37,546 bases of DNA from Desulfobacterales bacterium (GTDB lineage Bacteria > Desulfobacterota > Desulfobacteria > Desulfobacterales > Desulfosalsimonadaceae), in assembly GCA_025453995.1 (NCBI GenBank), contig JALOPH010000004.1, positions 1 through 37,546 of the forward strand, written 5' to 3'. Numbering within the stretch: the first letter of the stretch is position 1; every line of letters begins with the position of its first letter. A program made the translations under genes and the position numbers. The notes under the pieces are model-generated. The model saw only the letters and a program-made list of their open reading frames with translations, ran no database searches and had not been told where the DNA came from. This document shows, in pieces, positions 2,162 to 7,815 of this stretch.

Positions 2162-3355
2162 ATGAAAACCTATGATGTGGCTGTCATCGGCGGGGGGCCG
2201 TCAGGGGCTGTCGCCGCCATTCTCTGCGCCCGCAGCGGATTAAAGACCGTTCTGGTTGAAAAAAAAAGCCTGCCCAGGGCCAAAAGCTGCGCCGGCGGCC
2301 TGACAGCCCGATGCATCCGCCTGCTCCGTGATATCGATTGTTTCAATGACCAATTGCTTCAGAGAACCGTCAACCGGTTGATGATCTACTATCCCGATAA
2401 CCGCCAATTCTATGAACTCAAATCAAAAGAACATTGCCTTGGAACTGTGCTTCGGCCTGAGTTTGACATGGCGCTCACAGACCTTGCGATTCAGTCCGGC
2501 GCAGAATTTCGCGAGGCTGAATCTTTTACCGCTTATGAGCAAAAACCCTGTCGCTATCTTGCAATAAAAACAGAAATGTCCGATTTCGGCGCAAAAGTGC
2601 TTATCGGCGCAGACGGTTTCCACAGCCGGGTGCGCAAGCAGATGATATTCGAAATGGGGCTACCCATTTCAAAGCCCATGATGCTGGGCATCGAGTGCGA
2701 TATTTCAATGGATCAGGTCAGAAATTTATCCCCGGATCATTGCCATCTTTTTTTCAACATCAGCAAACATACCAATTACGGCTGGGCGTTTCCCAAAAAT
2801 GATATTTTCAATATCGGGCTTGTTCTTAACGGGGGAAACAGAAAAGAACCTTTCAGACCACCCCATCCGGTTCACCAGCTGAAATTTTTTCTGCAAAAAA
2901 TTTCAACAAAAGAAATCCAATGGGATCGGATCGGCGCCGCACCGATTCCCTTGTTTACAAATTCCCGAAAATCAATGATTCAAAAAGACAATGTCCTGCT
3001 GATCGGTGATGCAGCAGATTTTGCCGATGCATGGACCGGCGAGGGGATTTACTTTGGCGTCAAAAGCGCGATCCTGGCGCACAGGGCGATTCAAAACGCG
3101 CTGGCAAATGAAAAACCAATTGAATGTTTGTCAAGCTATTCAAAATTATGTAATAAGTTCATCTGCAGGGAGCTGAACATGTCTTATCGGGTATCGGAAA
3201 TGTTTAAAAAATTTCCATCCCTTTATGAGTATTTGCAATACCCCAGGGTCCGGCAATTGTTTGTTCCTCATACCCAGGGAGAAATCAGCTATCAAAAAGC
3301 GTTGATGAAAGCATTTTTAATTGTCTCTGGATATAAGCTTGGCTTGATTAAATAA
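2162..3355 (+). CDS. Geranylgeranyl-reductase-family FAD-dependent oxidoreductase
   Basis: A 397-residue flavoprotein. The N-terminus has the Rossmann motif G10-x-G12-x-x-G15 (AVIGGGPSGAVAA) with an acidic end of the second strand (VEKK). SCAGGLTARC follows, near where family members bind the flavin. TNYGWAFPK fits the (Y/F)xWxFPK substrate motif of geranylgeranyl reductases, and LLIGDAADFADAWTGEGI is the second FAD-binding stretch. Relatives reduce isoprenoid double bonds (archaeal lipids, chlorophyll or quinone side chains) or act on other lipids. In this background menaquinone or another isoprenoid is a plausible but unproven substrate. No gene nearby fixes the pathway. The start is an ATG 61 bp after the previous stop. 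Confidence 0.8.
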   Translation: MKTYDVAVIGGGPSGAVAAILCARSGLKTVLVEKKSLPRAKSCAGGLTARCIRLLRDIDCFNDQLLQRTVNRLMIYYPDNRQFYELKSKEHCLGTVLRPEFDMALTDLAIQSGAEFREAESFTAYEQKPCRYLAIKTEMSDFGAKVLIGADGFHSRVRKQMIFEMGLPISKPMMLGIECDISMDQVRNLSPDHCHLFFNISKHTNYGWAFPKNDIFNIGLVLNGGNRKEPFRPPHPVHQLKFFLQKISTKEIQWDRIGAAPIPLFTNSRKSMIQKDNVLLIGDAADFADAWTGEGIYFGVKSAILAHRAIQNALANEKPIECLSSYSKLCNKFICRELNMSYRVSEMFKKFPSLYEYLQYPRVRQLFVPHTQGEISYQKALMKAFLIVSGYKLGLIK

Positions 3356-3362
3356 TTTTCTT

Positions 3363-3383
3363 AATCCCTTTAAAAGGGGTTTT
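3363..3383 (+). terminator. Possible weak terminator after the flavoprotein gene
   Basis: Eight bases after the stop codon, AATCCCTT and AAGGGGTT can pair (nine pairs with one G-U) around a three-base loop, followed by a short T run. The stem is modest and the T tract short, so termination is plausible but unproven. Confidence 0.4.
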
Positions 3384-3428
3384 GACATATATCTATCGAA
3401 AACGCATTGAAATTCTTATTTGTTCACA

Positions 3429-3524
3429 ATTAACAATGATCAATTCACAATTGACCATTTTGTTGCTGGAGTTTGACCAAAAACCCAATTGTGAATAGTC
3501 AATTGTGAATTGATAATTGTTAAT
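3429..3524. repeat. AT-rich inverted repeat, 27-bp arms
   Basis: Arms 3429-3455 and 3498-3524 match at 26 of 27 positions as inverted repeats and share the core CAATTCACAATTGAC. They flank a 42-bp centre. The same AATTGTCAATTG-type words recur near 15.4-15.5 kb, so this is a dispersed repeat family and not only a terminator. Confidence 0.75.
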
Positions 3525-3579
3525 GAAAAAGCATGCCCCGGACATGAACCGGGGGCTGGGATGAGGGGGGACCACGATC

Positions 3580-4272
3580 ATGGTGAATAAACCATTTATC
3601 AAAACCGGGTATTTAGGGTTGGCCGTCATTGCCATGAGTATTGCGCTGCTCTTTGTCTTCCCATCCAAAGCGCCGTCGTTGCCGGAAGGGTTCATGACGC
3701 CGATTATTGCTTTTGAATTCATTCAATCTCCGGATGAAGTGTTTCAGATGTTTGGCGGAAACGATCTTGCCGCCCGAACCACAATGAAGGATGCCATGGA
3801 TCTCGGCAACCGCCTGGATTATGTATACATGATCCTGTACTCCATGTTTCTGCTGCTGTTCTCTGTAACTTGTAAAAAGATTACCCGAAATCCATATTAT
3901 TTTGCCGGCGCAGGGATTGCCCTTGTGGTGCTGGCCGGAGATGCCATGGAGAACATCCAGCTGCTCGGCATCACGGCCAATCTTTCAGCCGGTGATATCA
4001 CGCCCTACCTGGAGCCGCTTTATCTATTCACATGGATCAAATGGGGCGGGATAGCTATGATATTTCTGGTTCTTTTTCCCTGGTTCCTGAGGGGCGGCCT
4101 GTACTCAAAAATTATCGGGGCCACTGGCATCATCAGTTTTATACTGGGCTTTGCCGCTTTTCTGAACCGATCCGTCATCAATGAAATCTTTGCATTGTCT
4201 GTTGCCGTCATGTTTATTCTGATGATCATTTACTGCTTTACATTTAAGGCTCAAACCAGAGGCCATGTATAA
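3580..4272 (+). CDS. Conserved-type integral membrane protein, six predicted helices
   Basis: I do not recognise the family. The 230-residue protein is almost entirely hydrophobic, with about six membrane segments: near residues 8-26, 85-105, 107-130, 148-170, 175-196 and 199-220. A soluble loop of about 55 residues lies between the first two. No catalytic motif is visible. GAGGGGGGA upstream is a strong ribosome-binding site for the ATG at 3580. Its last 8 bases overlap the start of the serine hydrolase gene, implying translational coupling. The pair may work together at the inner membrane (inference). Confidence 0.7.
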   Translation: MVNKPFIKTGYLGLAVIAMSIALLFVFPSKAPSLPEGFMTPIIAFEFIQSPDEVFQMFGGNDLAARTTMKDAMDLGNRLDYVYMILYSMFLLLFSVTCKKITRNPYYFAGAGIALVVLAGDAMENIQLLGITANLSAGDITPYLEPLYLFTWIKWGGIAMIFLVLFPWFLRGGLYSKIIGATGIISFILGFAAFLNRSVINEIFALSVAVMFILMIIYCFTFKAQTRGHV

Positions 4273-5611
4273 TTACCTCAAATCCAAAATCAACCGGTCC
4301 ATTCGTATCCCCAAGGATATTTCAGGGGTGACGACGTTCAATCCTGGGGATGAATCTCCGCCCTCGGATGCCGGCATGACAAAAAAAGAAGCGGCTGCCA
4401 TCTGGGCCGGCGTAGAAGATCTGTATCGCACCGGCGTATATCCGGGGATATCTTTCTGCCTGAGGCGCAAGGGACAGGTGGTCTTAAACAGGGCCATCGG
4501 CCACAGCCGCGGCAACGGCTACGGAGATCCCCCGGATGCGGCCAAAATCCTTATGACTCCGGACACCCCGGTCTGCCAGTTTTCAGCGTCCAAGGCCATC
4601 ACCGCCATGATGATCCATCTGCTGGTGGAGCGTGGAAAAATCCATCTGTCCGACCCGGTGGCCCATTATATCCCTGAGTTTGCGGCCAACGGCAAACACC
4701 ATATCACCATCTACCACCTGATCTCCCACCACGGCGGCATACCGGCCCCGCCGCCCGGTGTGGACCCTGAACTGCTGTTTGATCATGACGCGTTCATTGC
4801 GCTGCTGTGCGGCCAGAAACCATCCGCCGAAGGCGGCAAGCAGATGGCCTACCATGCCATCACCGGCGGCGCCATCATGGGTGAAATCATCCGCCGGGTC
4901 ACCGGTGAAGACATCCGGACGCTGCTGCGAAAAACGGTTCAAAAGCCCCTGGGGTTCAAATATTTCAGCTACGGTTTGCCGGATAAACAGATCCCAAAGA
5001 TCGCTGTCAATTACGACACCGGCTGGCCCCTGGTTTTTCCCGTCTCCTATCTCGCCAAACGCGCATTGAGCGTGCCCTGGGGGGAGGTGGTGCGCATATC
5101 CAACGACCCAAGGTTCATGCAGGTCATCATCCCGGCCGCCAACCTGGTGGCCACGGCAGACGAAATGTCTCAATTTTTTCAGCTGATGCTAAACGGCGGG
5201 GAGTTAAACGGGGTGCGGATTTTCGATCCGCTCACCATCAAACGGGCCGTCGCGGCCGCAGACGCCATGAAGCTGGACGGAACCATGGTGGTTCCCATGC
5301 GCTACAGCCCGGGCATGATGCTGGGCGCATCCCCCATCGGCATGTGGGGGCCTTATTCCGAATCCGCCTACGGCCATGTGGGATTCATCCATATCCTCTG
5401 CTGGGCGGACCCGGCAAGGGATATTGCGGTGTCGTTGCAAACCACAGGCAAACCGCTGGTGGGCCCCCATCTGATGGCCCTGGCCAGGCTATTGCTCATC
5501 ATCGGCCGGAACTGCAAAATCAAGCCGGGTTTTCATCAGGCAGTCCAGGCCAACGGCGCCCTGCTGGTGCCGCTTCAGAATATGCTGAAACGACTGCTGT
5601 TGGATTTATAA
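4265..5611 (+). CDS. Beta-lactamase-fold serine hydrolase / family VIII-type esterase
   Basis: A 448-residue protein of the class C beta-lactamase fold. The nucleophile motif is S107-A-S-K110 (QFSASKAITAMM). Y196 in AYHAITGGAIMGEIIRRVTG is the second catalytic motif in the Y-H-A form common in family VIII esterases, rather than the Y-S-N of beta-lactamases. GHVGFIHILCWADP near the C-terminus stands in for the KTG box. ISHHGGIPAP is another family block. Members are carboxylesterases, D-amino peptidases or penicillin-binding-protein relatives. No clear signal peptide is seen. The ATG overlaps the preceding membrane-protein gene by 8 bp. A true beta-lactamase role is unlikely. Confidence 0.85.
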   Translation: MYNYLKSKINRSIRIPKDISGVTTFNPGDESPPSDAGMTKKEAAAIWAGVEDLYRTGVYPGISFCLRRKGQVVLNRAIGHSRGNGYGDPPDAAKILMTPDTPVCQFSASKAITAMMIHLLVERGKIHLSDPVAHYIPEFAANGKHHITIYHLISHHGGIPAPPPGVDPELLFDHDAFIALLCGQKPSAEGGKQMAYHAITGGAIMGEIIRRVTGEDIRTLLRKTVQKPLGFKYFSYGLPDKQIPKIAVNYDTGWPLVFPVSYLAKRALSVPWGEVVRISNDPRFMQVIIPAANLVATADEMSQFFQLMLNGGELNGVRIFDPLTIKRAVAAADAMKLDGTMVVPMRYSPGMMLGASPIGMWGPYSESAYGHVGFIHILCWADPARDIAVSLQTTGKPLVGPHLMALARLLLIIGRNCKIKPGFHQAVQANGALLVPLQNMLKRLLLDL

Positions 5612-5721: not shown

Positions 5722-5749
5722 GGAACTTTTAACGATAACAATTGTCTAA
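5722..5749 (+). promoter_or_regulatory. ECF-type promoter of the sigma factor gene (probable autoregulation)
   Basis: GGAACTT (5722-5728), a 15-bp spacer and GTCTAA (5744-5749) match the shape of RpoE-type ECF promoters (GGAACTT, then TC-rich -10). The same two words with the same spacing occur before the VIT/VWA gene at 7709-7736. The agreement makes chance unlikely and suggests that the sigma factor encoded just downstream recognises both. The transcription start would fall at or just after the ATG at 5754. Confidence 0.7.
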
Positions 5750-5753
5750 TTTG

Positions 5754-6359
5754 ATGAATAAAGGGCCGATCCCTCTTCGCGACACAGACGCTGACAATGA
5801 ATTGGTCCGCACGGCAGCCGGCGGCGACCGGCAGGCGTTTGACGATCTGGTGCGCCGTCACCAGGACCGGGTCTTCAATCTGTGTTTATGGTTTTTAGGC
5901 GATTATGATGAGGCCGACGACATGGCCCAGGAAGTATTCATCAAAGCATTCCGGTCGCTGAAATCATTTAGGTTTGAGGCGAAATTCTCCACCTGGCTCT
6001 ACCGGATCACGGTGAATACCTGCAAAAACCGTGCGACCTCTTTGGAATACCGGCTGAAAAAATGGACGGACCGGCTGGATGCCGGGGATGTGAATCCCGG
6101 CGATGCGGCGGCTGAAGATCAGCGCATTCAAGCGGCTTCGCCCCAGGATCAGTTGGAGCAAAAAGAAAACATCCAACAGATTCGAAAGGCGATCAACGGG
6201 CTTTCCGGCGATAAAAAAACTGTTGTGGTGCTTCGGGACATGGAGGGCATGGCTTATGATGAGATTGCCAGAATTACCGGAATGACCATGGGTACTGTGA
6301 AATCCAAGCTGGCCAGGGCCAGGGCAGAGTTACTGATCTACTTGAAGGATGTCATATGA
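5754..6359 (+). CDS. ECF (extracytoplasmic function) RNA polymerase sigma factor
   Basis: A sigma-70-family regulator of about 201 residues. The region 2 segment runs from FDDLVRRHQDRVFNLCLWF through DEADDMAQEVFIKAFRSLKSF to FSTWLYRITVNTCKNR. The region 4 helix-turn-helix is LSGDKKTVVVLRDMEGMAYD followed by EIARITGMTMGTVKSKLARA. A charged linker of about 50 residues joins them. Region 1.1 and region 3 are absent, as in ECF factors. A TTG at 5742 is in frame, but it lies inside the proposed -10 element, so the ATG at 5754 is preferred. No Shine-Dalgarno site precedes it, so translation may be leaderless. The anti-sigma gene lies 158 bp downstream. Confidence 0.9.
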   Translation: MNKGPIPLRDTDADNELVRTAAGGDRQAFDDLVRRHQDRVFNLCLWFLGDYDEADDMAQEVFIKAFRSLKSFRFEAKFSTWLYRITVNTCKNRATSLEYRLKKWTDRLDAGDVNPGDAAAEDQRIQAASPQDQLEQKENIQQIRKAINGLSGDKKTVVVLRDMEGMAYDEIARITGMTMGTVKSKLARARAELLIYLKDVI

Positions 6360-6394
6360 ATAGGTCTTTCCCATTCCAAAAAAATCTCCCCTGT

Positions 6395-6442
6395 CCCCTC
6401 TTTTGCCAAAGAGGGGTAAAAGTCCCCCTTTTGAAAGGGGGA
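6395..6442. repeat. Two adjacent G/C-block hairpins between sigma and anti-sigma genes
   Basis: Hairpin one pairs CCCCTCTTT (6395-6403) with AAAGAGGGG (6408-6416) across a 4-base loop. Hairpin two pairs TCCCCCTTT (6423-6431) with AAAGGGGGA (6434-6442) across 2 bases. They lie between the sigma stop and the anti-sigma start and could attenuate read-through, lowering anti-sigma relative to sigma (inference). A related hairpin occurs at 33420-33449, so they also belong to a dispersed palindrome family. Confidence 0.65.
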
Positions 6443-6517
6443 TTTAGGGGGATTTCAGTTGTCACTGACAATGTTATAGAATTGATATGAACTTTAACAA
6501 AAGGTTGTTTTCTCATA

Positions 6518-7612
6518 ATGAAATGCTCTGATGTTGAAAAGCATTTATCTGAATATATTGATGGTGAAGCGCCTCAAACTGCACGCCTTGAGATAGAAAT
6601 CCATCTTGAAGAATGCGCTCACTGCATGAAAAAATTTCATTCGGTGAAATCAATGGCAAATCATCTGGGCCAAATGCCCAAAGCCGCTGCACCGCCTGAT
6701 TTTATCAAACGCCTGCATGACCGGATTGAAAAAGAAACCCCGCCGAACAAATTACGGGATTTTTTCCTGGCGCCACTTAGAATCAGGCTCCCCCTGGAAC
6801 TGGCCACCGCCGCGGCCCTGGGCATCCTTATATTTTTTATTGTCCGGCCGATGAATCAGAAGGAAACCTTCAACCATCCGGCGGAAGAAAACTTCGCTTT
6901 AGAAAAAAAAGCCGATTCCCGATCCGGCAAACATCCGGCGGACCAACGTCTCGAAAGGCTGCATGAAGAGGCCCCGGCTACTCAACCAAAGGCCGAATCC
7001 GTCAAAGACGAAGCCGCCCCGCCGCCTGCATTGTCTGATAAAAAGCAAGAGATCAGCCGTGCAAATGAACAAGGCGCACAATCCATGCAGCCAAAGCCGG
7101 CCAAATCAACGGATGCTGAATCCGAAACCGCCGCGCTCAGAGAAATATCAGGGCCGCCGCCTATTGAAATATCACTTGTCATATCAACTGAAAGACAGAC
7201 GGCGGCGGCCATTCAGGAATCCGCCCGAGCGCCGGCTGATCATATGGCAGGGGCCTCAACCGAATTTGCTGAAAAAAAATCCATGGCGCTTTCCTCAGCC
7301 GCCGCGCCCAAACGGGAAAAAGCAGAACAGGATGCCGAACCCGCATCTGCCCCGGCTGAGCCGCCATCTGCCGACAACATCGAAAAAGAAATCGGCGGAT
7401 TGCTCGATGTCATGGGCGGAAAAGTCATTGAAACACAATACGATGAAGGCTATCGGCCTAAATCCATGAAAATTGAAATTCCCTCATTCAAATATAAAGA
7501 ATTTATCCATCAGCTCCACCAAGTCGGCGACTTTGAATCCCCGCCCCTCAGAATCCACCCTCTTGGCGATCAACCCATTCAAATCACGATCCTGTTTTTG
7601 AGCCAGCCTTAA
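6518..7612 (+). CDS. Zinc-finger (ZAS) anti-sigma factor, membrane-anchored
   Basis: A 364-residue partner of the ECF sigma factor. The N-terminal zinc-binding anti-sigma domain has C3 and H29-x3-C33-x2-C36 (HLEECAHCMKKF). A transmembrane helix lies near residues 92-111 (LATAAALGILIFFIVRP). A long Ala/Pro/Glu/Lys-rich segment of about 170 residues, probably periplasmic and disordered, follows. It ends in a compact domain near residues 290-364 (IGGLLDVMGGKVIETQYDEG onwards) that loosely resembles DUF4349-like sensor domains. By family knowledge the cytosolic zinc domain holds the sigma factor until an envelope signal acts on the periplasmic part. It is followed by a strong terminator, so the VIT/VWA gene needs its own promoter. 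Confidence 0.85.
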   Translation: MKCSDVEKHLSEYIDGEAPQTARLEIEIHLEECAHCMKKFHSVKSMANHLGQMPKAAAPPDFIKRLHDRIEKETPPNKLRDFFLAPLRIRLPLELATAAALGILIFFIVRPMNQKETFNHPAEENFALEKKADSRSGKHPADQRLERLHEEAPATQPKAESVKDEAAPPPALSDKKQEISRANEQGAQSMQPKPAKSTDAESETAALREISGPPPIEISLVISTERQTAAAIQESARAPADHMAGASTEFAEKKSMALSSAAAPKREKAEQDAEPASAPAEPPSADNIEKEIGGLLDVMGGKVIETQYDEGYRPKSMKIEIPSFKYKEFIHQLHQVGDFESPPLRIHPLGDQPIQITILFLSQP

Positions 7613-7642
7613 TCGGCTCAAAAAATACAAGTTGCCCATTTT

Positions 7643-7680
7643 CCCTCGGAGGAGAAATCCTCCGAGGGTTTATATTTTTT
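7643..7680 (+). terminator. Strong intrinsic terminator after the anti-sigma gene
   Basis: A perfect 11-bp stem, CCCTCGGAGGA (7643-7653) with TCCTCCGAGGG (7658-7668), is closed by a GAAA tetraloop. It is followed by TTTATATTTTTT. It lies 30 bp after the anti-sigma stop codon and separates this unit from the VIT/VWA gene. Confidence 0.9.
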
Positions 7681-7708
7681 GTTAAAAAAATTTTTTGAAA
7701 AAAATATG

Positions 7709-7736
7709 GGAACTTTTTTGCCTCCTTCCTGTCTAA
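7709..7736 (+). promoter_or_regulatory. ECF-type promoter of the VIT/VWA gene
   Basis: GGAACTT (7709-7715), 15 bp, GTCTAA (7731-7736): the same words and spacing as before the sigma gene. The leader would start near 7743 and be about 70 nt long. TGTCT and AGACA (7730-7734 and 7739-7743) form a small dyad over the -10 end. A perfect palindrome GAAACGGCCGTTTC lies in the leader at 7753-7766. Either may be an additional control site (inference). Confidence 0.75.
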
Positions 7737-7815
7737 ACAGACAAAAGAACACGAAACGGCCGTTTCAAAACTTAACCGAAAAAATTTAAATTTGATTGTC
7801 AAAAGGAGGCAGCCC

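Follow-up and report, generated by a model that had tools for sequence, protein, structure and literature searches.

The question raised by this locus of a Desulfobacterales draft genome is whether a single extracytoplasmic function (ECF) sigma factor switches on both its own gene and a nearby gene for a secreted protein with VIT and VWA domains. The window, that is, the whole stretch of DNA analyzed here, comprises 37,546 nucleotides (nt) of contig JALOPH010000004.1 (assembly GCA_025453995.1), and it carries genes for the sigma factor, a membrane anti-sigma factor and the VIT/VWA protein in this order (Table 1). The initial annotation had placed one copy of GGAACTT-N15-GTCTAA before the sigma gene and one before the VIT/VWA gene, with no third in the window, and had read the pair as a sigma factor that activates itself and the secreted VIT/VWA protein. 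Both copies are indeed exact, and no further match was found in the window even with up to two mismatches. The two promoters had also been called identical, which holds for both elements and their spacing but not for the spacers, whose sequences differ. A search of the whole source genome (3,651,685 bp) returned two exact copies, both at this locus, as opposed to ~0.10 expected from base composition, and the motif thus exceeds its random rate.

Persistence of the motif in relatives had been singled out beforehand as a point on which the proposal could fail, and the motif proved to be kept at both genes. The strict pattern GGAACNTT-N14-GTCTAW was tallied in 80 genomes (cited below by G numbers, with L numbers for individual loci), and sigma orthologs were sought in the same 80 by protein profile search, without use of the motif; 21 genomes reached the threshold of at least 190 bits. 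Every one of these 21 sigma genes is directly preceded by GGAAC-N17-GTCT(A/G)(A/T), and all 20 of these genomes with a full-length VIT/VWA gene carry the motif before that gene too, at 9–184 nt upstream in most genomes and ~350 nt in G231. Most sigma-bearing genomes contain exactly two strict copies, one before each gene. No strict copy was found in the 17 control genomes, which are those members of the set that entered neither of the two tallies (VIT and sigma), or in eight genomes with a full-length VIT/VWA gene and no sigma gene (G053, G108, G111, G127, G150, G165, G197 and G199). Among genomes with the VIT/VWA gene, the association of motif with sigma gene has a Fisher p of 3e-7, a value that ignores relatedness. 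With a loose cut-off, orthologs of the VIT/VWA protein turned up in 31 out of 98 relatives; with E <= 1e-150, they were detected in 63 out of the 389 genomes searched within the order.

The pattern also holds where the genes have moved apart. Sigma and VIT/VWA genes are 63 kb apart in G051 and on different contigs in G005 and G115, and all of them retain the motif. In G193 and G099, which belong to one genus, GTCTGA replaces GTCTAA in both promoters, a parallel change in sequence that is consistent with recognition by one shared factor. Three genomes have the motif before the VIT/VWA gene on a contig that stops short of the sigma gene (G221, G242 and G297), and G151 is 73% complete and a member of a genus with unlinked sigma and VIT/VWA genes. 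In a tree of VIT/VWA proteins the motif-bearing genes form one supported clade (98/92) apart from a small number of exceptions, among them G127, which lies inside the clade and has neither sigma gene nor motif. Outside the order, three genomes of the same phylum have the sigma gene with the motif, and two of the three also have the VIT/VWA gene with it, although these genomes came from a motif search and are a biased sample. Spacers and flanks of the motifs are unrelated. The sigma, anti-sigma and VIT/VWA genes are the conserved unit, since a single relative, from the same family, shares the genes that flank them.

Table 1. Positions of the features of the sigma/anti-sigma/VIT-VWA locus within the window.
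Feature	Position	Strand	Description
Sigma-gene promoter, GGAACTT (-35), 15-nt spacer, GTCTAA (-10)	5722..5749	+	Exact match; present in 21/21 sigma orthologs
RpoE-like ECF sigma factor, 201 aa	5754..6359	+	Sigma70_r2 2.9e-18, Sigma70_r4_2 1.2e-15
Interspersed repeat between sigma and anti-sigma genes	6366..6465	.	At least 40 scored genomic matches
Membrane anti-sigma factor, 364 aa	6518..7612	+	zf-HC2 5.1e-10; one transmembrane helix (~91-109)
Intrinsic-terminator-like hairpin, anti-sigma/VIT-VWA gap	7643..7668	+	11-bp stem, then T-rich tail
VIT/VWA-gene promoter, GGAACTT-N15-GTCTAA	7709..7736	+	Exact match; present in 20/20 sigma-bearing genomes with full-length gene
AAAGGAGG-type ribosome binding site, 79-nt leader of VIT/VWA gene	7801..7815	+	caaaaggaggcagccc before ATG
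VIT/VWA protein, 791 aa	7816..10191	+	VIT 4.1e-36, VWA 1.4e-17

The proposal that the sigma factor activates itself and the VIT/VWA gene therefore draws support from the conservation of both promoters, from their persistence when the genes are unlinked and from the absence of the motif where the sigma gene is absent. We consider it highly probable that the locus encodes a small, self-amplifying envelope-response circuit consisting of an RpoE-like sigma factor, a membrane anti-sigma factor and a VIT/VWA output. The anti-sigma factor, with its single transmembrane helix, would hold the sigma factor at the membrane through its cytoplasmic zinc-type domain, and a sensor domain would lie at the C-terminal end of its periplasmic part. 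Release of the sigma factor would be triggered from outside the inner membrane by a signal that most likely acts through proteolysis of the anti-sigma factor. Once free, the sigma factor may transcribe its own operon with the anti-sigma gene, a positive autoregulation by way of a leaderless mRNA starting within 0–2 nt of the ATG, and from the same type of promoter the gene of the secreted VIT/VWA protein, as an mRNA that has a leader and a strong ribosome site. The secreted protein, which would be the conserved and often sole output, is probably located in the periplasm or at the surface and would engage a partner by way of its metal ion-dependent adhesion site (MIDAS). Autoregulation and the release step are proposed here because pairs of ECF sigma factors and class I anti-sigma factors work in this manner (PMC8103513, PMC7406223). 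A more elaborate version, in which the VIT/VWA protein is the sole conserved target and joins the periplasmic domain of the anti-sigma factor in a feedback on sensing, while the leaderless sigma mRNA activates the loop under conditions that impair the normal initiation of translation, seems to us rather doubtful.

The 4–5 nt between the -10 element and the sigma start codon were overlooked in the initial annotation. In the window the ATG lies 4 nt past the -10 element, and the distance is 4–5 nt in all 21 genomes (the start codon being GTG in G099 and ATG in the others). Because the -10 element ends so close to the start codon, the sigma transcript is predicted to be leaderless; a transcript that starts at or near the start codon could not accommodate a ribosome binding site. 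At the VIT/VWA gene, by contrast, an AGGAGG ribosome site lies in an untranslated leader, and in most genomes the promoter of this gene is 36–79 nt upstream and leaves a AAAGGAGG-type site.

Similar promoters could have other origins. That the motifs are a product of chance, or of copied DNA without promoter function, might be suspected from the window itself, where the count of matches with up to two mismatches is a weak statistic (7 of 100 shuffles also reach two). The rarity of the motif in the genome, its retention across numerous families within the order and in the three further genomes of the phylum, its persistence after unlinking and the unrelated spacers and flanks leave this explanation next to no probability, and genome-wide rarity together with conservation rules out chance. 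It is also very improbable that another RpoE-like ECF sigma factor reads both promoters while the adjacent one has other targets. ECF promoters of this type do look alike, and the genome encodes a second ECF factor on contig C26 that is 33% identical and has a related motif of its own, GAAACTT-N15-GTTTAA. However, the -10 element of that motif is distinguishable (GTTTAA), and across the order the motif follows the sigma factor of the locus rather than the paralog: G001, G022 and G030 have ECF paralogs of 33–34% identity, lack a sigma factor of the adjacent type and have no copy of the motif.

A broader sigma-E-like regulon comprising tens of genes, of which the two promoters are just the best-matching members, is unlikely, though less so than the two readings above. 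Two strict sites beyond the usual pair lie before secreted proteins in G221, G073 has one more site, and the source genome holds 38 sites with two mismatches. On the other side, the number of strict sites is exactly two in the majority of sigma-bearing genomes, the next-best sites of the source genome (one mismatch) precede no plausible gene, the reading frames after them resembling chance open reading frames, and two-mismatch sites are fewer than under a reversed-pattern control (42 versus 189). The sites of G041, G178 and G196 and the third sites of G187 and G153 were rejected as targets, no plausible gene following any of them.

Several points weigh against the small circuit driven by the adjacent sigma factor or against parts of it. 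The two additional sites of G221 precede genes for a DUF4139 protein and a further VIT protein, and still more genes could come within reach if the promoter is relaxed. More sites may have escaped notice in the source genome because it is a draft of 335 contigs that is 92% complete. The distance from the -10 element to the sigma start codon is also compatible with transcription starting a few bases inside the ATG. Against a start codon further downstream stands the length from the ATG to the conserved domain, which is similar in all sigma orthologs. RseP-like M50 metalloproteases, of the kind that acts with DegS in the release of RpoE, are encoded in the source genome but lend no support to the release step, since such proteases are universal. 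An AlphaFold2 single-sequence model of the VIT/VWA protein was unusable (mean predicted local distance difference test score, pLDDT, of 32), and what can be said of its function therefore comes from sequence families. The targets in G221, by including the DUF4139 protein and the second VIT protein, suggest that the circuit has a whole family of VIT-type secreted proteins as its output. The additional sites of G221 are located at L277 3452-5075 and L278 2422-5534, and its second VIT protein has a VIT-TPR-DUF2135 arrangement.

The sigma factor has the features of the ECF group, with sigma2 and sigma4 domains only, an adjacent anti-sigma gene and a promoter that, from its sequence, would be autoregulatory. 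Its best NCBIfam match is RpoE (TIGR02939) at 147 bits, under the cut-off of 236 and thus outside the RpoE equivalog, and its -35-binding region aligns to that of E. coli sigma-E (2h27). The anti-sigma factor consists of an N-terminal zinc-type domain (H29-C33-C36, an HxxxCxxC motif) that resembles those of RsiW, MucA and RslA, followed by the transmembrane helix, a long disordered linker of low complexity and a C-terminal domain. The latter has weak family matches to DUF2275 and DUF4349, DUF2275 being detected in five of eight orthologs, and an AlphaFold2 model predicts a beta-alpha-beta-beta-alpha-beta order with the first strand ahead of a disordered insert. A ferredoxin-like fold of the PulL/XcpY/PilO type was considered for this domain and rejected, as the matches were middling (Z about 5–6) and not above background.

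Sigma stop and anti-sigma start overlap or abut in relatives; in the window they are 158 nt apart owing to a hairpin-forming interspersed repeat that is absent from this junction in the relatives examined. The initial annotation had also argued that a strong terminator after the anti-sigma gene obliges the VIT/VWA gene to have its own promoter. A terminator-like hairpin is present in the window, but it is not conserved in relatives, with just 10–19 nt from anti-sigma stop to VIT/VWA promoter in G056 and G050, and it is thereby ruled out as a conserved feature that would explain why a second promoter exists.

The VIT/VWA protein has a signal peptide, a VIT domain (55–165), a VWA domain and an AgmX/PglI-like C-terminal tail (9.3e-6) with conserved cysteines C713 and C759. 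Its MIDAS, to which D317 and S319 belong, is intact, DISGS, T387 and D414 being invariant columns of the ortholog alignment. It scores 440.8 bits against TIGR03788, under the curated cut-off of 551.65, and hence falls outside that family; no LPXTG-type signal was found at its C-terminus (...NLEIIYEIRHSKS), nor any sortase among the flanking genes scanned. In G036 (L062 8004-10337) an in-frame TAA interrupts the VWA region of the gene, with promoter and remainder intact, which reflects either a recent break or an assembly error. In several relatives from one family (L293, L294, L300 and L303), repeated TTCGACGTTCGATGTTC-like sequence fills the leader or upstream region of the VIT/VWA gene and shifts the promoter up to ~740 nt from it.

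Other observations concern the surroundings of the locus and more distant sigma factors. Three genes upstream in the window (2162-5611) encode a geranylgeranyl-reductase-like protein, a 230-aa protein without family and a beta-lactamase/LipE-like protein, and their order beside the sigma gene is kept in G005 (L114) alone. The second ECF gene of the source genome (L117, G000:C26) has its GAAACTT-N15-GTTTAA motif 9 nt before the ATG, and copies of this motif lie ahead of two further genes, each for a small exported protein (L118, G000:C212; L119, G000:C235), so a second small ECF regulon is possible. Among named genomes, the best sigma alignments are mostly to Gammaproteobacteria RpoE, and no relatives of the VIT protein were found in their contigs by peptide patterns. 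A close metagenome-assembled genome (MAG) of the Deltaproteobacteria (L151) has a sigma/anti-sigma pair with a GTCAAA variant of the motif and no VIT gene next door. In a Spirochaetes MAG (L152), GTCTAA (5962-5970) directly adjoins the ATG of a sigma gene whose product is 47% identical and has a similar anti-sigma factor, but no GGAAC lies at the right distance from it.

These results provide a clear and testable wiring diagram (which sigma factor, promoter and anti-sigma factor) for a bacterial VIT/VWA family. The putative regulon is unusually small and readable from sequence in many genomes, and the sigma gene, predicted to be leaderless and autoregulated, has maintained its 4–5 nt spacing across the order; the locus is therefore a good model for the co-evolution of ECF sigma factors and their targets. 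No paper joining an ECF sigma factor to a VIT domain protein and no match to the literal motif string were found in searches that scarcely covered the subscription literature, which is weak evidence of novelty.

Comparison with known systems places the locus among familiar parts. The VIT-VWA core is homologous to the modules of PARP4 (1.4e-41 by profile) and the inter-alpha-trypsin heavy chains, although these are eukaryotic and stand in an unrelated context without sigma-factor regulation. A nearer counterpart is TIGR03788, the 'marine proteobacterial sortase target protein', which shares VIT and VWA domains and is alignable over ~590 residues (E 8e-132), whereas the protein described here has an AgmX/PglI-like rather than an LPXTG-type tail, would be controlled by an ECF sigma factor and has no sortase among its scanned neighbors. 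The anti-sigma factor shares its N-terminal fold and HxxxCxxC motif with zinc-type class I anti-sigma factors such as RsiW and RslA (MucA being a non-zinc relative), but differs in its long disordered linker and in a C-terminal domain with weak family and fold matches. GGAACTT-N15-GTCTAA in full is the sigma-E consensus of E. coli and Salmonella, and the motif of the locus is of the textbook RpoE (sigma-E) type. Its GGAACTT element is the -35 target of RpoE (PMC8103513). Compared to the RpoE/RseA/RseB system (ECF02), the sigma factor lies far under the equivalog cut-off (147 versus 236 bits), apparently acts on one target or a few rather than on a large regulon and has an mRNA predicted to be leaderless; the anti-sigma factor, unlike RseA, has a zinc-type zf-HC2 domain and a DUF2275-like part, and the gene next to it is that of the VIT/VWA protein and not an RseB gene. 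Shared with that system are the -35 and -10 elements (GGAACTT and GTCTAA) at the same spacing, an RpoE-like sigma factor, an anti-sigma factor with one transmembrane helix and a periplasmic part, and the expected positive autoregulation. Because its promoters are of the sigma-E type and its sigma factor is closest to RpoE, the locus, as read from its sequence, would work like a small RpoE circuit.
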